From Sphingobacteriaceae bacterium (lineage in GTDB: Bacteria > Bacteroidota > Bacteroidia > B-17B0 > Aurantibacillaceae), in assembly GCA_002319075.1 (NCBI GenBank), contig NVQB01000001.1, positions 3,968,001 to 4,032,000 on the forward strand: 64,000 bases of DNA, given 5' to 3'. This document shows positions 899-22,955 of the stretch, in pieces. Positions within the stretch are counted from its first letter, which is position 1. The number at the start of each line of letters is the position of its first letter. The notes beneath the pieces were generated by a model that was not told the origin of the DNA, did no database searches, and was given only the letters and a program-made list of their open reading frames with translations. A program made the position numbers and the translations under genes.

Positions 899-3800
899 AT
901 GAAAACTATGAAACTCTTATTGGTCCTGGCTTTACAATTAACTGTATTAAGTGTTTTAGCCCAGAGCCCTCCATTAATTAATTATCAGGGTATCGCACGC
1001 GATGCCAACGGACTTCCCATTACAGGTAATATCGATCTTCGTTTTGAATTTCATCAGGGTGGAGTATCTTCTCCTACCGTTTTTTCTGAACAACAAACGG
1101 TAAGCACCACCTCTCTGGGTCTTTTCACTACACAGATTGGAAAAACCTCCAATTTAAATGCTGTTAACTGGGAGTCTGGTTCACTTTTTTTAGAAGTTTC
1201 AGTGAGCTTATCGGGCGCGGGTTATGTAAGTATGGGAACGCAACAATTAGTGAGCGCACCTTATGCGTTGCATGCACAATCTGTTCCTTCAACCTTTACA
1301 AACAATATCCTTACCATAGGTTCAGGAACAAACGCGAAAACCTACTCGCTTACTTCTGTAGGAAGTTCGCCAGGTACCAGTATCACTACCAGTGGTGCGG
1401 CTACCGTTACCAGTTCGGGTACTAATACTTTTAATATCGATGTTCCCGCTACTACTTTTTCTTCAGGAACAAATGTTTCTGTGCAGGGTACGCACCCAAA
1501 TTATACCATCTCTTCAACGCCTAGTTTGAGTATTAATGGAAATAACCTCAGTATATCAGGTGGTAACACAATTCCCATTCCCACGTCAGGAACTATTGCG
1601 GCTGTTAATACAACGGTGGTTACCAGTGGTGCGGCAACCACAACTACGTTAGCACCAAATTCATTCAGTATAAATGTTCCTGTTCCAACATTTACGGGAG
1701 CCGGGCAAACTACTATTTTGGGTTCTTTTCCTAATTACACTGTTAATACACCTACAGTTACAGCCGGTTCCAGTCCCACCATTACCGGTGTCGGGGCAGC
1801 AGTAGTAACACCAACCACGGGTACAAATTTTGTGGTGAGTGTTGCCAATCCAACATTATCAAGTTCAGGAAACAGTGTTACATTAACACAGGGCACACTG
1901 GTAACAACAGCCACTATAGCTGCAACGCCTGCTACGTCTTTATCAGCGGGTACCAACGTTAATATAGCAGGAACAAATCCTTATACCATTGCAGCAACTC
2001 CGACTTTAAATTTATTAACGGCCAACACCTTAAGTATAAGCGGAGGGAATTCAATAACGATTGCTCCTACAGTTTCTGTTTCCGGAAATGGATCATTGAG
2101 CGTGGGACCTTTAACGAACAGTGTAAACATTGCTCCTAATTTATTAGGAACAGGTGCTGTGTCGGTTAGCGGAACCTTTCCAAACTACACAATTTTTGCA
2201 ACTCCGGCCGGAAGTGTGACGGTTATCTCAACAACGGTAACGGGCACCAATCTGGCAAATGTAACTTCTACAGCCACCAATTTATATAATGTAGATGTTC
2301 AGCCTCCCACTTTTACACCAGCGGGTCCGGTAAGTATCAGCGGTACTTATCCTAATTACACAATTAATTCAAGCGCAGGAGTAACGTACACAAATGGAAC
2401 AGGTATTAGTATTACTTCAGGATCTATCATTACCAATACTTCTCCTAACATAACACCTACCATTGTTATAACAAGCACTGCAGCAGCAGGGTCGTCGGTA
2501 ACAAGTTCAGGAAGTTCGTTCAGTATCAATGTTCCACCGGCAATAATCTCCAGTTCAGGAAATACAATTACAGTGACACATGGCACAACCATAACTACAG
2601 CAACGATCTCTGCAGGCCCAACAACAAGTTTAGTTCCGGCAGGTGTTGTAAGTATGACCGCAACAGGCACCAACTCATTTATAGTTGGAGTTCCGGGTCC
2701 AACTTTAACCAGCAATGGTAATACTTTAACCATTACCCAAGGTACAGCAGTAACGTCGGCAACAGTGGCAGGCAGTCCAACAACAAGTTTAGTTCCGGCA
2801 GGTGTTGTAAGTATGACCGCAACAGGCACCAACTCATTTATAGTTGGAGTTCCTGATCCTATTTTAACCAGCACTGGAAATAGTTTAACCATTACACAAG
2901 GTACAGCTGTAAGTACGGCCACCATTCCGGCTTCTATAACTTACACCAACGGAACAGGTATTTCCATCACCTCAGGATCTATCATCACCAATACAAATCC
3001 CGACCAGGTAGTAACTCTTTCCAATGCCGGAAACATGGGGATATCTGGAAGTTATCCGAATTTTAGTTTAGCTGCACCATCCGCCAGTTTCACACAGGGC
3101 GGTATAGCGAACGTTAGCACTATTACAGCAAATTCCTATAGCGTAAGTGTTCCGGGCCCTACTTTAACGAGCACTGGAAATAGTTTAACCATTACCCAAG
3201 GCACAGCGGTGAGTACAGCCACCATTCCTGCTTCTATAACTTACACCAACGGTACGGGTATTTCCATCACCTCAGGATCCGTTATTACCAATGCAAATCC
3301 CGACCAGGTAGTAACACTTGCTAACGGAGCTAATATTTCCGTATCTGGAACTTATCCTGCATTTACTATTGCATCTCCTTCACCAACCTTTACACCAAAC
3401 GGACCAGTAACGATAACCGGCACCTATCCATCTATGACGGTTAACTCCACTGCAGCCCCTGTGTATACAAATGGTGCGGGTATTTCTGTTACAGGATCTG
3501 TGATTACAAATACAAGCCCTAACCAAACAGTAAGCGTTACAAGTGGCTCCAATATTAATGTTTCAGGAACTTATCCGGCTTATACTATTTCCTCTCCAAC
3601 GCCTACTTTCACACCAAATGGTCCGGTAACTATAACAGGAGCGTATCCATCCATGACAGTGAACTCCACTGCAGCACCGGTTTATACAAGCGGTACAGGT
3701 ATCTCAATTACATCTGGAACTATTATTACCAATACAAATCCTGACCAGGTGGTAACCCTTTCTAACGGAGCTAACATTTCCGTTTCGGGAACTTATCCTG

Positions 3801-6049
3801 CATTTACGATTGCATCACCTTCACCCACCTTCACACCAAATGGACCGGTAACAATAACAGGAACTTATCCCTCCATGACGGTAAACTCTACCGCAGCGCC
3901 TTCGGCCAGCTTTACACAAGGGGGTATTGTAAACATCAGTACAATTACAGCAAATTCATATAGTATCAGTGTATTGCCTGCAACCATAGCTGTAACTTTC
4001 TCGGCTGCTGCGAATCCAGCTGTTACAACTACCGGAAACTCTTTTAATATTAATATTCCACCGGCTGTGGCTCCGAATATTACTGTCTCTTCGTCTCTTG
4101 CAGCGGCGGGGATCTCTACAACAAGTGCAAATAATTTTAATATCAATGTTCCTTCTCCAAACATTGTTGTGTCACAAACGGCTGGTGCTGTGGGCATCAG
4201 TACCACAAGTGCAAACAATTACAACATCAACATTCCTTTAGCGAATGGTGCATGGGGACTTTTAGGAAATGCCACCACCACTGCAGGAACCAATTTTATA
4301 GGAACTACAGATGCCAGGGATCTGCAATTTAAAACCAATAACACGCTCGCTATGGTTATTAACACTTTGGGCAGCGTAGGCATAGGAACAACCACTCCAG
4401 GGACAAAATTCCATGTTAGCAATGGTTCCGCAACGGGAGAAACAGGTTATTTTGAAATGACCAATGCTACTGGTGCGGGTCATGGATTAATCGCATTGAG
4501 CGCTTCCAGTAACTCTTTAAGTTATGCGTTTAGGGCCATCAATAACAACGCGGCTCTAACTTCTTTCGGAGCAATAATAGAAGGTGGAGCAATTGTAAGA
4601 GCAAAAAACTCAGCCCTTGCATACGCATTCAAAGCACAGGCTTTTGCAGGTGGAGATCTTGTTACTATTCAGAATAACGGTAATATGGGTATTGGTACAA
4701 ATAGTCCAGACGCATTATTAAATGTGCAGGGTAGCATTGATATTGGGATTACGAATTCGGTAACGGGGATAATGTCAGCCGCTATCGGAACCAGTAATAC
4801 CGTTACCGGCCATCGGTCTTTTGCACTCGGTAGCTCCGCAAGCATTTCAAACCTGGGTAGCATGACCCTGGGAGACTGGGGAGGCGGTGCACCAACCGTG
4901 TTAAATTCTACCGCAGACGATCAGCTATCGGCCCGTTTTAGCGGTGGTTACAGATTTTTTACGGACAACACTTTAACAGCACACAGGGGGATTTACTTTA
5001 CCAGCAATGGTAACGTTGGTATTGGAGTTACCAATCCCGGAACATCAAAATTATTTGTGATGGTGCCAGCTGCAGATGGTACAAATAATATTGGACTTAC
5101 TGCAACCAATAATTACACGGGTACTTCAACAAAATACGGAATTGATGTAAACGTAGATGGAGCAGGAAGCGGAACAAAATATGGTATCAGTTCCACAGTT
5201 GTGGGTCTCGCGCTGGATGGGAGTGCTAATTATGGCTACCAGGTGATAATGACTCCCAATGGCACAGGCTCGGGGTTTGCAAATTATTCATATCTGCAGC
5301 CAGTAGGAACAGGTCCACGTTACGGCCACCTCACATATGTTTACAGCGCTTCTGGAAATACTTCCGATACATATGGACACTACATTGGCATGAGCGGCTC
5401 GAATGCTACCGCTGTAAAACATGGTTTATATGTAACCGGTGAGGATCAAAATTATTTTTCGGGAATGGTGGGTATGGGAACTATTACACCTCAATACGGT
5501 TTAGATGTGAAATACAATGGAGGCGTATACATGGCAGAATTCGAAAACCTAAATACTGGTAGCGGAGCTGATGGGATTAAAATTAGTGTACAAAATGGTA
5601 GTCCGACATCGAGCGCTTACTTCGTAGGATGTTACGCAAATGGACTTAATATCGGGGGCATAAGAGGTGATGGTGCTGGAGGCGTTACATTTCCACAATC
5701 ATCAGATCGCCGTTTAAAACAAAATATAAAAGACTTTAAAAATTCATTAGAAATAATTGGAAATATCCAACCCAGACAATACGAATATAAAAGGAGTCCT
5801 GGTATTACCAGTATAGGGTTTATAGCACAAGAACTTAAACAATACTATCCTTATGCAGTCATCGGTCAGGAGAATTCAGACGTGAATGAAGACCCAATGA
5901 TGGTAGATTATTCAAGGTTAACCCCCTTATTAACAGGTGGTATCAAAGAACTCCACGAAATCGTGAAAAAACAAGACCTCGATATTGAAGAATTAAAAAA
6001 GCAATTAGAAGAACAAAAAAAACTAATTGAGCAGCTTTTAAAAAAATAA
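899..6049 (+). CDS. Giant secreted beta-repeat adhesin with C-terminal S74-type intramolecular chaperone domain
   Basis: This is a 1716-residue protein. A signal peptide (about residues 1-21, ending VLAQ) is followed by a domain beginning PPLINYQGIARDANG, common at the N-terminus of Bacteroidota surface proteins. Roughly residues 130-1110 are Thr/Ser/Gly-rich beta repeats built on units such as ISVSGTYPAFTIASPSP and PVTITGTYPSMTVNS. After that come NVGIGTTTPGTKFHV-type stalk motifs. Residues 1601-1716 match the peptidase S74 / tail-spike chaperone domain: SSDRRLKQNIKDF at its start, GFIAQELKQYYP, and a terminal coiled coil. In that family the Ser and Lys of the SD.RLK motif self-cleave the chaperone after trimer folding. 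Both are present here (about S1602 and K1607). A trimeric stalk is inferred. The gene lies upstream of T9SS-related genes on the same strand. Confidence 0.85.
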   Translation: MKTMKLLLVLALQLTVLSVLAQSPPLINYQGIARDANGLPITGNIDLRFEFHQGGVSSPTVFSEQQTVSTTSLGLFTTQIGKTSNLNAVNWESGSLFLEVSVSLSGAGYVSMGTQQLVSAPYALHAQSVPSTFTNNILTIGSGTNAKTYSLTSVGSSPGTSITTSGAATVTSSGTNTFNIDVPATTFSSGTNVSVQGTHPNYTISSTPSLSINGNNLSISGGNTIPIPTSGTIAAVNTTVVTSGAATTTTLAPNSFSINVPVPTFTGAGQTTILGSFPNYTVNTPTVTAGSSPTITGVGAAVVTPTTGTNFVVSVANPTLSSSGNSVTLTQGTLVTTATIAATPATSLSAGTNVNIAGTNPYTIAATPTLNLLTANTLSISGGNSITIAPTVSVSGNGSLSVGPLTNSVNIAPNLLGTGAVSVSGTFPNYTIFATPAGSVTVISTTVTGTNLANVTSTATNLYNVDVQPPTFTPAGPVSISGTYPNYTINSSAGVTYTNGTGISITSGSIITNTSPNITPTIVITSTAAAGSSVTSSGSSFSINVPPAIISSSGNTITVTHGTTITTATISAGPTTSLVPAGVVSMTATGTNSFIVGVPGPTLTSNGNTLTITQGTAVTSATVAGSPTTSLVPAGVVSMTATGTNSFIVGVPDPILTSTGNSLTITQGTAVSTATIPASITYTNGTGISITSGSIITNTNPDQVVTLSNAGNMGISGSYPNFSLAAPSASFTQGGIANVSTITANSYSVSVPGPTLTSTGNSLTITQGTAVSTATIPASITYTNGTGISITSGSVITNANPDQVVTLANGANISVSGTYPAFTIASPSPTFTPNGPVTITGTYPSMTVNSTAAPVYTNGAGISVTGSVITNTSPNQTVSVTSGSNINVSGTYPAYTISSPTPTFTPNGPVTITGAYPSMTVNSTAAPVYTSGTGISITSGTIITNTNPDQVVTLSNGANISVSGTYPAFTIASPSPTFTPNGPVTITGTYPSMTVNSTAAPSASFTQGGIVNISTITANSYSISVLPATIAVTFSAAANPAVTTTGNSFNINIPPAVAPNITVSSSLAAAGISTTSANNFNINVPSPNIVVSQTAGAVGISTTSANNYNINIPLANGAWGLLGNATTTAGTNFIGTTDARDLQFKTNNTLAMVINTLGSVGIGTTTPGTKFHVSNGSATGETGYFEMTNATGAGHGLIALSASSNSLSYAFRAINNNAALTSFGAIIEGGAIVRAKNSALAYAFKAQAFAGGDLVTIQNNGNMGIGTNSPDALLNVQGSIDIGITNSVTGIMSAAIGTSNTVTGHRSFALGSSASISNLGSMTLGDWGGGAPTVLNSTADDQLSARFSGGYRFFTDNTLTAHRGIYFTSNGNVGIGVTNPGTSKLFVMVPAADGTNNIGLTATNNYTGTSTKYGIDVNVDGAGSGTKYGISSTVVGLALDGSANYGYQVIMTPNGTGSGFANYSYLQPVGTGPRYGHLTYVYSASGNTSDTYGHYIGMSGSNATAVKHGLYVTGEDQNYFSGMVGMGTITPQYGLDVKYNGGVYMAEFENLNTGSGADGIKISVQNGSPTSSAYFVGCYANGLNIGGIRGDGAGGVTFPQSSDRRLKQNIKDFKNSLEIIGNIQPRQYEYKRSPGITSIGFIAQELKQYYPYAVIGQENSDVNEDPMMVDYSRLTPLLTGGIKELHEIVKKQDLDIEELKKQLEEQKKLIEQLLKK
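2618..2853 (+). repeat. 77-bp exact direct repeat inside the adhesin gene, period 159 bp
   Basis: Bases 2618-2694 and 2777-2853 are identical and start 159 bp apart, encoding two copies of a 53-residue unit. A looser 300-bp period follows (around 2874 and 3174, both starting actggaaatagtttaacc). Another near-repeat pairs 3331 with 3768. Identity at DNA level, beyond what protein constraint needs, points to recent unit duplication or gene conversion in the stalk. Confidence 0.9.
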
Positions 6050-19654: not shown

Positions 19655-21262
19655 TCAATTATCCGATAGAATAAAGTTTAGGCCCCGTTCAAAGCCAATT
19701 AAGGGAGTTTCCATGTGTTGGAGTCCGGGATAAATTTCAAAGCGCGATCTTACCCTAAGAAGAGCCAGTTTTTTTTCAAAATCAGTGAATACCCCTATAT
19801 GGGTAGTAAGGTCGTCGTCAAATTCACCAAAACTTAGATAGCATCTTTTTTGAAGCGAAGTTATTTTGGAGGGATTTAGCGTGTTAGTATAATTTAAAAT
19901 ATAATTGTCTGCGTAATTCAACGAGGGGCTGATGCAAACATAATTTTTTATTAAAGTGTTCTCTTCTTTCAAATCAGTCAATAAACTCCAGATAGGGAAA
20001 TATCCTCCAAGCGAATGCCCCATTATGCTTACCTCTTTTTTATTGGTACGGAAACTTTGATGAGCGTAGGGTAGTAATTCCTTTTGAATAAAATCTCTGA
20101 ATTTATCAGCGCCGCCGCAAAGCAAACAACTATCTGCAACAAGGTCCCGGGGAAAAGTGTAATCTCGTTGTCTTAGTGAATCCATTAGGGCTACATTTGC
20201 ATAACCAATACCGATTAAAATAGCTTCAGACAAATGCTCTTTATTTTCGGGATCCCAAAAATCAGAGACGCCAGTGAAGTAGGCATTTGCGTCAAGTAAA
20301 AGAACGAGTGGATACGTTTTAGTTTTATTTTTTTGATAGTTAGACGGCAGATGCACAAAAAGTGAGAACGTATCCTTCACATAAGTTGATATCAGTACCT
20401 TTGTAGCGGAAATTTCCTTTTCATCTTTATCTGAATTTCTATTTGTCTCCGGCGTAAGAGCGGTAAGATTCATTAAATAGTGGTGTGGCGGTACCATCCA
20501 TTCTCCGAGACTTGTTTTTCTGACAAAGCTTTTGCTTCGGCCTCCTAATTTTACTTCAAGAGCGATTGCTTTTTTTCTTTTTTGAGATGGAAGAAATTCA
20601 AAAGCAACAACAACTTCGTTTTTGCCGTAAAGATTATATTCGGAAATAATGCAATGAAGCCAGCCTTCTTTTAATAATGCAGTTTTAAAAATGGGTTGTG
20701 TGTTTAGTCTTTCAGCGGGACGATTACCGTCGAACTTATAAATATTGATCCTGAATTTAACCGAGTCGGCATTGTCTTCATTAATATAGAGATCTACTGA
20801 GTTAAGTTTTGTGTTTGTTGCCGGAAGTTTTATGAGTTGTGCGATCTCAAATATATCATTCTGATTAATGGAAGCATCTATAAAATGAATGGCTGCATGC
20901 TTTGTGAGCCCAAATTTTGCTTCCACTAATTTGCTGGTAGAAATGCTAATTTCCGGTAGAACTGATGCTTGACGGAAGAGAGGAATAACCTTTTTACCGC
21001 TCGCCTCAATGGGGAGTTTAAAGTCGGCATAACCTATCAACGAAAAAGTAAGTGTATCGTTTTGAAAACTGGAAGGAATTGAAATAGAGAAAGTGCCATC
21101 GCTTAAACTCGTTGTCCCTAAATTTTTACCTTTGATTCCAATATTCACATAAGCCAGAGATTCGCGCGATAACGGATCGAGGACCTTACCTGAAATACTA
21201 ATTTGGGCACCTAAGGGTTGAATGAATAAAACGCTTGTAAAGAGTAGGATAAAACGCAGCAT
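19655..21262 (-). CDS. Secreted alpha/beta-hydrolase (esterase) with carboxypeptidase-regulatory-like N-terminal domain
   Basis: 535 residues. Signal peptide 1-19 (ending PLGAQ). A CarboxypepD_reg-like beta domain (about 20-92) has ISGKVLDPLSRESLAYVNI and LSDGTFSISIP. A middle beta domain covers about 100-265. The C-terminal hydrolase (about 290-535) is of the esterase D / enterochelin esterase type. It shows LFVHLPSNY, YPLVLLLDAN, the nucleophile elbow GHSLGG (about residue 414) and a probable catalytic His in PGLQHMETP (about 515). The acid is probably in GEFDDD. The substrate is unknown; a periplasmic or surface ester is plausible. No sorting domain of the T9SS is visible. Confidence 0.85.
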   Translation of the reverse strand: MLRFILLFTSVLFIQPLGAQISISGKVLDPLSRESLAYVNIGIKGKNLGTTSLSDGTFSISIPSSFQNDTLTFSLIGYADFKLPIEASGKKVIPLFRQASVLPEISISTSKLVEAKFGLTKHAAIHFIDASINQNDIFEIAQLIKLPATNTKLNSVDLYINEDNADSVKFRINIYKFDGNRPAERLNTQPIFKTALLKEGWLHCIISEYNLYGKNEVVVAFEFLPSQKRKKAIALEVKLGGRSKSFVRKTSLGEWMVPPHHYLMNLTALTPETNRNSDKDEKEISATKVLISTYVKDTFSLFVHLPSNYQKNKTKTYPLVLLLDANAYFTGVSDFWDPENKEHLSEAILIGIGYANVALMDSLRQRDYTFPRDLVADSCLLCGGADKFRDFIQKELLPYAHQSFRTNKKEVSIMGHSLGGYFPIWSLLTDLKEENTLIKNYVCISPSLNYADNYILNYTNTLNPSKITSLQKRCYLSFGEFDDDLTTHIGVFTDFEKKLALLRVRSRFEIYPGLQHMETPLIGFERGLNFILSDN

Positions 21263-21327
21263 CTGCTTAAACTGTAGGGTGTTGCTTTAAGACGCTTTAA
21301 GATTATGAATGTTACACTTAATTAAAA

Positions 21328-21501
21328 TTATTTTGGTGTTTTTTTATCTTTGACTTTCGATTTTCCATTTTCCTGCAAGGCTTTCTGAAGCAAATACTCG
21401 ATCTGCCCGTTCACGCTTCTGAATTCATCATCGGCCCATTTCTGGAGTTCTTTCAGTGTGTCGGGGTTGATGCGGAGTATGAATGCTTTTTTTTCTGCCA
21501 T
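21328..21501 (-). CDS. Small ribbon-helix-helix (Arc-like) DNA-binding protein
   Basis: 57 residues, read by hand from the ATG at 21501 to TAA at 21328. The start KKAFILRINPDTLKELQKW gives the beta strand and first helix of an Arc/MetJ ribbon-helix-helix. RSVNGQIEYLLQKAL gives the second helix, with the conserved N-G-Q-I-E-Y core seen in Arc-family proteins. A Lys-rich tail follows. Such proteins are dimeric repressors. The nearest upstream gene on the same strand is an SPFH protein, a pairing I know from other bacterial genomes. Its first 54 bp occur twice more upstream in a tandem array (see the repeat feature). Confidence 0.85.
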   Translation of the reverse strand: MAEKKAFILRINPDTLKELQKWADDEFRSVNGQIEYLLQKALQENGKSKVKDKKTPK

Positions 21502-21895
21502 TACACTATTGATAAACCAGTTTCAGAAAGGATTGTTGTTTTAACCACATAGAGACATAGGAGGCATGGAAAAAAGTTAGATTGGCCAAAGGCGCACATA
21601 GTATTAAACCTGCGGTTCAATTTGCGACGACCTGACTCATTGACTTCTTTCAGTGTGTCGGGATTGATGCGGAGTATGAATGCTTTTTTTTCTGCCATTA
21701 CACTATTGATAAACCAGTTTCAGAAAGGATTGTTGTTTTAACCACATAGAGACATAGGAGGCATAGAAAAAAGTTAGATTGGCCAAAGGCGCACATAGTA
21801 TTAAACCTGCGGTTCAATTTGCGACGACCTGACTCATTGACTTCTTTCAGTGTGTCGGGGTTGATGCGGAGTATGAATGCTTTTTTTTCTGCCAT
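21502..21895 (-). repeat. Two tandem 197-bp units, each with a copy of the RHH gene's first 18 codons plus a 143-bp spacer
   Basis: Units 21502-21698 and 21699-21895 differ at only about two positions (for example gcatgg against gcatag, and gggatt against ggggtt). Each holds an ATG, the 54 bp encoding MAEKKAFILRINPDTLKE and a 143-bp spacer with the phrase accacatagagacatagg. The copies create two 65-codon frames (21895 to 21698, 21698 to 21501). Each ends in TAA overlapping the next ATG as TAATG, so the chain could be translationally coupled into the intact gene. The sequence upstream of 21895 differs from the spacer and probably carries the original promoter. Recent duplication is inferred; an assembly error cannot be excluded. 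Confidence 0.85.
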
Positions 21896-22100
21896 TAATT
21901 TAGAATATCTATAAGTATACTACTACAAAATTAAACCACAACTTGAGCCCAACTTATTTCGCGATAGAGACAAAGATAAGGAGAGCAATTACCGGATGTA
22001 AAGAGTTGCACATAATAATACAAGCTTTGCTTCCGTGTGATAGAGTCAAACGCCCAACCTTTTTCCTGCTTCGTATTTATCAAGCTTAAAAATTAATTTG

Positions 22101-22955
22101 CTAGTGGTGCAGTGTACCTGTATTTACAATTGGACTAACCTCTTTATCACCACACAAAACTACCAGTAAATTACTTACCATAGCTGCTTTACGCTCTTCG
22201 TCAAGATGCACAATTTCACGTTCTGATAACTTTGATAAAGCCATTTCAACCATGCCCACAGCACCTTCTACAATTTGCCTGCGCGCTGCCACCACGGCTG
22301 TAGCTTGCTGTCTCCTCAACATGGCACCGGCTATTTCCTGTGCGTAGGCTAAATGACTAATGCGCGCTTCCATAACTTTGATACCTGCGGGGGCAAGACG
22401 CTCAGATAATTCATTCTCTAACAAACGACTTACCTGTTCTGATCCTCCACGTAAAGTTACTTCTGCCGTTTCTTCTTCGAAATTATCGTATGGACAAATG
22501 CTTGCCAGGTGTCGCACCGCAGCTTCACTTTGAATGTTGACATACTTGGTATAGTCATCTACCTCGAAACTCGCCTTTGCCGTATCCTGTACCTGCCACA
22601 CAATAATGGCAGCGATCTCTACCGGATTACCGATTTTGTCGTTTACTTTCAGCGATTGTCCATTCAGGTTTCTCGCTCTGAGGGATATAAATTTTCGGAT
22701 GTAAAAGGGGTTCACCCAATGGAAGCCGCTTTCTTTAACTGTGCCCTTATAAGTCCCGAATAAAATAAGTACGTTGGCTTCATTAGGATTTACTATGAGA
22801 AATCCTTTGCTGAAAAAGAAGACCGGTAGAAGAAGTATTACCGCGAGAGGAATTATATTTAATATGAAAGCAGCAATAGCTCCAACAGTAAGTAATACGC
22901 AAATACCAGCTATTCCGTATCCGGAAAATGGCTGAAGGGATTTTTCTTGAATCAT
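22101..22955 (-). CDS. SPFH (band 7) domain membrane protein
   Basis: 284 residues. Two N-terminal hydrophobic segments (about 13-30 and 33-51) are followed by the SPFH/band 7 domain (about 52-235). Visible parts are [46 protein letters not shown], and [24 protein letters not shown] proteins oligomerise in the membrane and are linked to membrane organisation or protease control. No associated NfeD gene is seen here. The downstream same-strand gene is the ribbon-helix-helix protein, about 600 bp away because of the tandem units. Confidence 0.9.

Follow-up and report, generated by a model that had tools for sequence, protein, structure and literature searches.

Why does the start of a regulator gene occur three times in succession? 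In the stretch of DNA analyzed here (64,000 nucleotides, termed the window), an Arc-like ribbon-helix-helix (RHH) gene is preceded by two units, each of which opens with a copy of its first 18 codons and closes with a stop codon that overlaps the next ATG. A sequence-only reading of this locus had taken the three starts for a chain that could be read by re-initiation, either altering the dosage of the regulator or yielding two short, possibly inhibitory by-products. The question is whether the copied gene start is a switch or an accident; the evidence below indicates that it is probably an accident.

Architecture of the array

The 54-143-54-143-54 bp layout on the minus strand was confirmed, with two 197-bp units ahead of the RHH gene. 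Read 5' to 3' on that strand, the order is the SPFH/Band_7 gene, 205 bp of intergenic DNA, a 54-bp gene piece, a 143-bp spacer, a second gene piece, a second spacer, and the native 54 bp with the remaining RHH gene, which ends at 21328. The features are listed by their positions in the window.

21328..21501, minus strand: RHH gene, Arc-like ribbon-helix-helix, intact, 57 aa (RHH_5 match; pN/pS against four relatives)
21501..21698, minus strand: proximal unit frame, 65 aa, TAA overlapping the RHH ATG (ORF and direct-repeat search; no Pfam or NCBIfam family)
21698..21895, minus strand: distal unit frame, 65 aa, TAA overlapping the next ATG (ORF and direct-repeat search; no Pfam or NCBIfam family)
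21645..21698, minus strand: proximal copy of the first 18 RHH codons, one difference from the gene (position 36)
21842..21895, minus strand: distal copy of the first 18 RHH codons, identical to the gene
21539..21622, minus strand: right half of the interspersed repeat in the proximal spacer (spacer positions 23-106; matches in genus genomes)
21736..21819, minus strand: right half of the repeat in the distal spacer (matches in genus genomes)
21926..22032, minus strand: diverged second copy of the same kind of repeat, upstream of the array (79-81% over 32-53 nt to copies in genomes G017, G001 and G000)
21926..21933, minus strand: TAATTTTG, an exact TAnnTTTG (Bacteroidetes -7 consensus), 30 nt before the distal ATG
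22101..22955, minus strand: SPFH/Band_7 gene, the usual upstream partner of the RHH gene

The direct-repeat and TRF searches were concordant in giving a 197-nt unit present twice and a 59-nt copy present three times at a spacing of 197 (TRF: 21448-21897, 2.3 copies, score 886), and the repeat is far beyond chance. The two units differ from each other at only 2 of 197 positions (36, C/T, synonymous; 131, T/C). The first 54 nt of the native RHH gene are identical to the distal copy and differ from the proximal copy by the single mismatch at position 36. The two near-identical units with TAATG junctions are confirmed, and their recent origin by tandem duplication is supported.

TAATG was found at all three starts. 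The TAA of each unit shares its last A with the ATG that follows, giving a stop-start overlap of co-directed frames at 21499-21503 and at 21696-21700. All three start copies have the TA before the ATG in common; the DNA further upstream of the first (distal) copy is unrelated to that preceding the other two, and the TAA at this start therefore closes no unit.

The RHH gene and its usual setting

The RHH product matched RHH_5 with 30.1 bits (cut-off 26; E 3.9e-07) over residues 16-45, while its score against Pfam Arc (16.6 bits) fell under the cut-off of 20.4, and no solved structure was related to it by sequence at E<=0.1. A match to the NCBIfam family cas3_cyano (17.6 bits versus a cut-off of 69.1) was dismissed as chance. 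Compared with four relatives, the gene gave pN values of 0.06-0.17 and pS values of 0.63-0.84, which speaks for purifying selection. Its occurrence is patchy, with a match in 16 of 87 genomes of the order and in 17 of 60 relatives. Truncated extra copies were seen only in the window's own genome; the two matches of genome G009 each lie close to a contig end.

The setting of the gene was analyzed at 100 RHH loci (L006-L022 and L055-L137); one scan for relatives kept the best 80 of at least 568 confirmed, and at least one genome is apparently represented twice (L010 and L076, on contigs of equal length). The SPFH gene lies upstream on the same strand in 97 of the 100. The gap between the two genes is 20 nt or less in 50 of these 97 and 10 nt or less in 45, a joint that, from its length, might be tight enough for translational coupling in many relatives. 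Scoring for a copied gene start covered 99 loci (L022, with the gene at a contig end, was left out; L135 has 173 nt upstream), and none carried one, the best self-match covering 31 of 54 positions, where the window scores 53 and 54. Of the genomes examined, only the window's own thus has the array.

Of the relatives that have lost the tight joint, L006 and L007 come nearest in RHH identity. The 63-nt gap of L006, the nearest relative of all by this measure, contains the repeat of the array's spacer as a short, complete copy, AACCACATAG...CTATGTGGTT. The 87-nt gap of L007 is filled by a different, hairpin-like A/T-rich repeat (read by eye), so that the SPFH-RHH joint evidently tolerates insertions.

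The repeat in the spacer

In each 143-bp spacer, about 84 bp are similar to the right half of an interspersed repeat that has an inner hairpin and the end CTATGTnnCTATGTGGTT. Weak matches (70-73%) cover spacer positions 23-106 in G006, 23-105 in G019 and 40-106 in G035, and strong ones (81-100%) about positions 70-106 or 83-106. Among the matches listed, 37 of the 40 genus genomes match the spacer at E<=1 (a few outside the repeat part), and 19 of the 40 do so at E<0.01 inside the repeat part (hand count). The exact right-end pattern was present in all eight relatives searched. Complete copies, as read in L144, L148 and L149, have inverted ends (AACCACATAGnnACATAG and its mirror) flanking the inner hairpin. 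The spacer in the window holds the right half only, the left inverted end being absent, and the 205-bp region upstream of the array holds a second, diverged copy.

Of the 47 right-end matches examined, which are not independent since arrays are included, 17 have a hairpin of at least 7 pairs upstream, and 13 of these 17 hairpins reach CTATG within two bases. The mean best stem at right-end matches is 5.5 pairs, versus 4.3 in shuffles. The window copies have 4 uninterrupted pairs, or 8 with a G-U pair in the RNA fold. Among L185-L200, the stem sequence of the long hairpins (the same 17 of 47 matches) varies by locus without loss of complementarity, as though the structure of the palindrome were what is conserved.

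Rfam gave no match at gathering score in the window, L185, L186, L200 or L148. The phage and plasmid collections gave no DNA match, and an origin of the array from either was rejected on this ground.

In G019, exact right ends number 82 among the matches listed, and 44 of these form 22 outward-facing pairs, each within 200 bp (hand count); the pairs are read as complete elements from their arrangement.

Other arrays carrying the repeat

With up to 2 mismatches allowed, the right-end pattern matched 43 times in the window's own genome, compared with 2 for the reversed control. The 43 matches correspond to 22 loci (hand count), of which 16 were examined (15 and the window); the other six are each a single two-mismatch match. 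Tandem arrays were detected by TRF at 5 of the 16 (copies x period).

L185: 4.4 x 215
L186: 4.9 x 214; 979-2035 (own genome, C1, about 2,513,578-2,514,634)
L187: 9.0 x 104; 979-1911 (own genome, C1, about 3,095,178-3,096,110)
L188: 2.0 x 239; 1205-1685 (own genome, C1, about 962,004-962,484)
window array: 2.3 x 197

The repeat and a gene end are tandemly repeated together at several of these loci, whichever gene end is involved. In L185, each of the five copies includes about 109 nt from a neighbouring ORF's 3' end, of which 45-60 nt match at 85% or better and the remainder has diverged; in L186, each of the five includes the final 97 nt of an ORF named radical-SAM-like by eye, and most have an 8-bp hairpin. 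In L187, the unit overlaps an ORF 3' end by 15-19 nt, a weak case. The units of L188 contain the repeat and no piece of any listed ORF, so that this locus offers no gene junction to name. From the end of the gene piece to the start of the hairpin, the distance is about 3 nt in L186, up to about 5 nt in L185 and 21-23 nt in the window; a junction at the hairpin foot is clear in L186 and L185 only. Since the same repeat makes arrays with gene 3' ends, duplication goes with the repeat and not with the regulator.

As an observation on its own, L187 presents nine near-identical 104-bp units, each with the right end of the repeat, between two convergent ORFs.

In the control, 20 stretches of 20 kb from the same genome contained one array of period 80 or more, which lacked the repeat; the enrichment of arrays at the repeat rests on 5 loci in one genome. 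The control array (L215 114-483; C1, 3,380,114-3,380,483) comprises 2 x 183 bp and lies largely outside ORFs of at least 100 aa. In the window itself, the other long-period arrays are inside ORFs and without the interspersed repeat; tandem repeats within ORFs occur at 2618-2912 (period 159) and 3248-3901 (about 220).

Arrays were also seen in relatives, at L200 (2.0 x 153), L201 (2.4 x 123) and L202 (several of 110-119), three loci chosen because their right-end matches clustered. Unlike in the window's own genome, none of the 82 matches listed for G019 has a same-strand neighbour within 400 bp. Array formation is not a property of every copy or genome, given that the G019 copies form no arrays.

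Origin of the array

The array is, in our judgement, likely to be a by-product of tandem duplication linked to an interspersed hairpin repeat, one that came to lie between the SPFH gene and the RHH gene. Near the inner hairpin, replication would have slipped or changed templates, copying a stretch of the repeat together with the adjoining gene end, and slippage or unequal exchange would then have increased the number of units. In the window, the adjoining gene end would have been the 5' end of the RHH gene, and start codons were copied because the adjoining end happened to be this one. The RHH protein is presumably still made, through direct use of its own ATG, through re-initiation at TAATG once the two short frames have been read, or through both; the 65-aa peptides would be non-functional.

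Several observations count against this account. In the window, the hairpin is short, and 21-23 nt separate its foot from the gene piece. Ahead of the first gene piece lies unrelated DNA with another, diverged copy of the repeat, an arrangement that does not fix the order of events. The lack of a gene junction in L188, an enrichment drawn from 5 loci of a single genome and the absence of arrays among the G019 copies count against it as well.

Extended to the genus, the account would read as follows: the half-repeat with its inner hairpin repeatedly seeds arrays, copying the adjoining gene end with a junction near the hairpin foot and with no Y1 transposase, and at a gene start this creates a translatable start-codon chain of frame-neutral, variable number. 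We put this forward tentatively, as a rule that may well prove too broad.

The locus would exemplify a local and recent route by which an interspersed repeat copies pieces of neighbouring genes, start codons included, and thereby creates upstream reading frames. The five arrays in one genome offer material for a direct test of a breakpoint rule at the hairpin. For the regulator, the lesson would be that a striking start-codon chain can arise without a regulatory purpose.

The start-codon chain and other explanations

The alternative that survives best is a translational leader, in which ribosomes would load at the distal ATG and re-initiate twice, the units setting the RHH dose and replacing a lost coupling to the SPFH gene. 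The geometry permits such a chain: each unit ends in TAATG, the frame is open through the spacer, and stop and start overlap by 1 nt, which is the commonest arrangement after the 4-nt overlap in a study that also reports that short overlaps favour translational coupling (PMC10666635). According to the same study, little coupling is left in H. volcanii and E. coli when the gap is 20-38 nt, and coupling to the SPFH gene across the 205 nt present here is therefore unlikely (PMC10666635); the short gaps in many relatives might permit it.

The probability of the chain arising by chance was estimated from two components. The spacer stays open in 8.07% of 20,000 dinucleotide shuffles, given TAATG in frame, and a unit length that preserves the frame (modulo 3) is a one-in-three event, giving about 0.03 (0.08 x 1/3) for the chain of frames. 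As the two units are near-identical copies, the TAATG chain counts as one event. The value is suggestive at most; it leaves room for selection and counts against the by-product reading. RNA folding of the starts and spacer revealed nothing unusual, the folds being less stable than those of shuffles (z 0.8 to 1.7).

The -33/-7 consensus is given as TTTG/TANNTTTG in a source that also describes Kozak-like initiation in Flavobacterium johnsoniae (PMC6847099). Exact TAnnTTTG occurs at two sites (21926-21933 and 21971-21978), both in the 205-bp region upstream of the distal ATG, and at none inside the units, which fits loading at the distal start; shuffles of 774 nt gave an expectation of 0.25 sites, with at least one in 22% of them. 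No convincing -33 element was seen by eye. Across 21250-22150, the sigma-70 search returned 2 promoter-like sites (2.3 expected), and the terminator search returned one terminator-like site, on the plus strand (0.6 expected).

Against the leader, the case is a single instance with two near-identical copies, it has no counterpart at the 99 scorable RHH loci, and ribosomes could equally well initiate directly at the RHH ATG. The spacer is largely a dispersed repeat that makes arrays over other gene ends. These arrays include gene 3' ends, where no start is involved, and for this reason the regulatory start-codon chain was demoted from its place as main explanation. A leader of this kind is accordingly regarded as unlikely: the re-initiation chain remains permitted by its geometry, and its proposed role in dosage control finds no support.

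Insertion of the spacer by a mobile element whose target duplication, at 54-56 bp, would be unusually long, followed by amplification, would account for the order gene piece-repeat-gene piece seen in the window and in L185, for the dispersal of the repeat, and for the many right ends of G019 that stand in close outward-facing pairs among the matches listed. The unit, however, lacks the left inverted end, and the length of the gene piece varies between loci. The Y1_Tnp family (PF01797, the RAYT domain), the only transposase family searched, had no match in the window's own genome, while the control was positive in 5 of 14 genomes. We consider such an insertion improbable. Mobilisation of the REP/RAYT type was rejected, and the repeat was not filed as REP/RAYT, because the genome is without Y1_Tnp.

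An assembly artefact, with one unit or none in the cell, is very improbable, given that the units differ at two sites and that the contig, of 5,648,308 bases, holds arrays of up to about 1 kb. The suggestion that the 65-residue peptides, having the strand but no dimer helix, act as inhibitors of the RHH protein is barely credible and found no support: although the first 18 codons cover what we take, from the Arc fold, to be the N-terminal strand region, the Arc/MetJ-type RHH fold requires both helices, 47 of the 65 residues of each peptide are translated spacer DNA, and neither peptide matches any family in Pfam or NCBIfam, RHH included.

Comparison with known systems

Three known systems bear comparison with this locus. 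Gene pairs with termination-reinitiation at 1-nt overlaps (PMC10666635) share with it the TAATG overlap of co-directed frames; they differ in that the upstream frames here are duplicated fragments of the downstream gene joined to repeat DNA, and coupling is putative. The bacterial triplex-motif repeats (PMC4666352) are likewise short intergenic repeats linked to local rearrangement and genome instability, but their motif is different, and the main text of that report makes no mention of Bacteroidetes.

The closest known kind is that of the REP elements and BIMEs, which are interspersed, palindrome-bearing extragenic repeats, often found in composite repetitive structures (PMC3733652, PMC2817692), with the REP sequence tags GTAG/CGTC (PMC3733652). 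The present repeat resembles them in distribution and clustering only. Of their traits, its copies are interspersed, their position relative to genes was seen at the fetched loci only, and a hairpin of at least 7 pairs is present in 17 of 47 matches though not in the window copies. In contrast to REP elements and BIMEs, the element described here is larger, and some of its units copy parts of the neighbouring genes.
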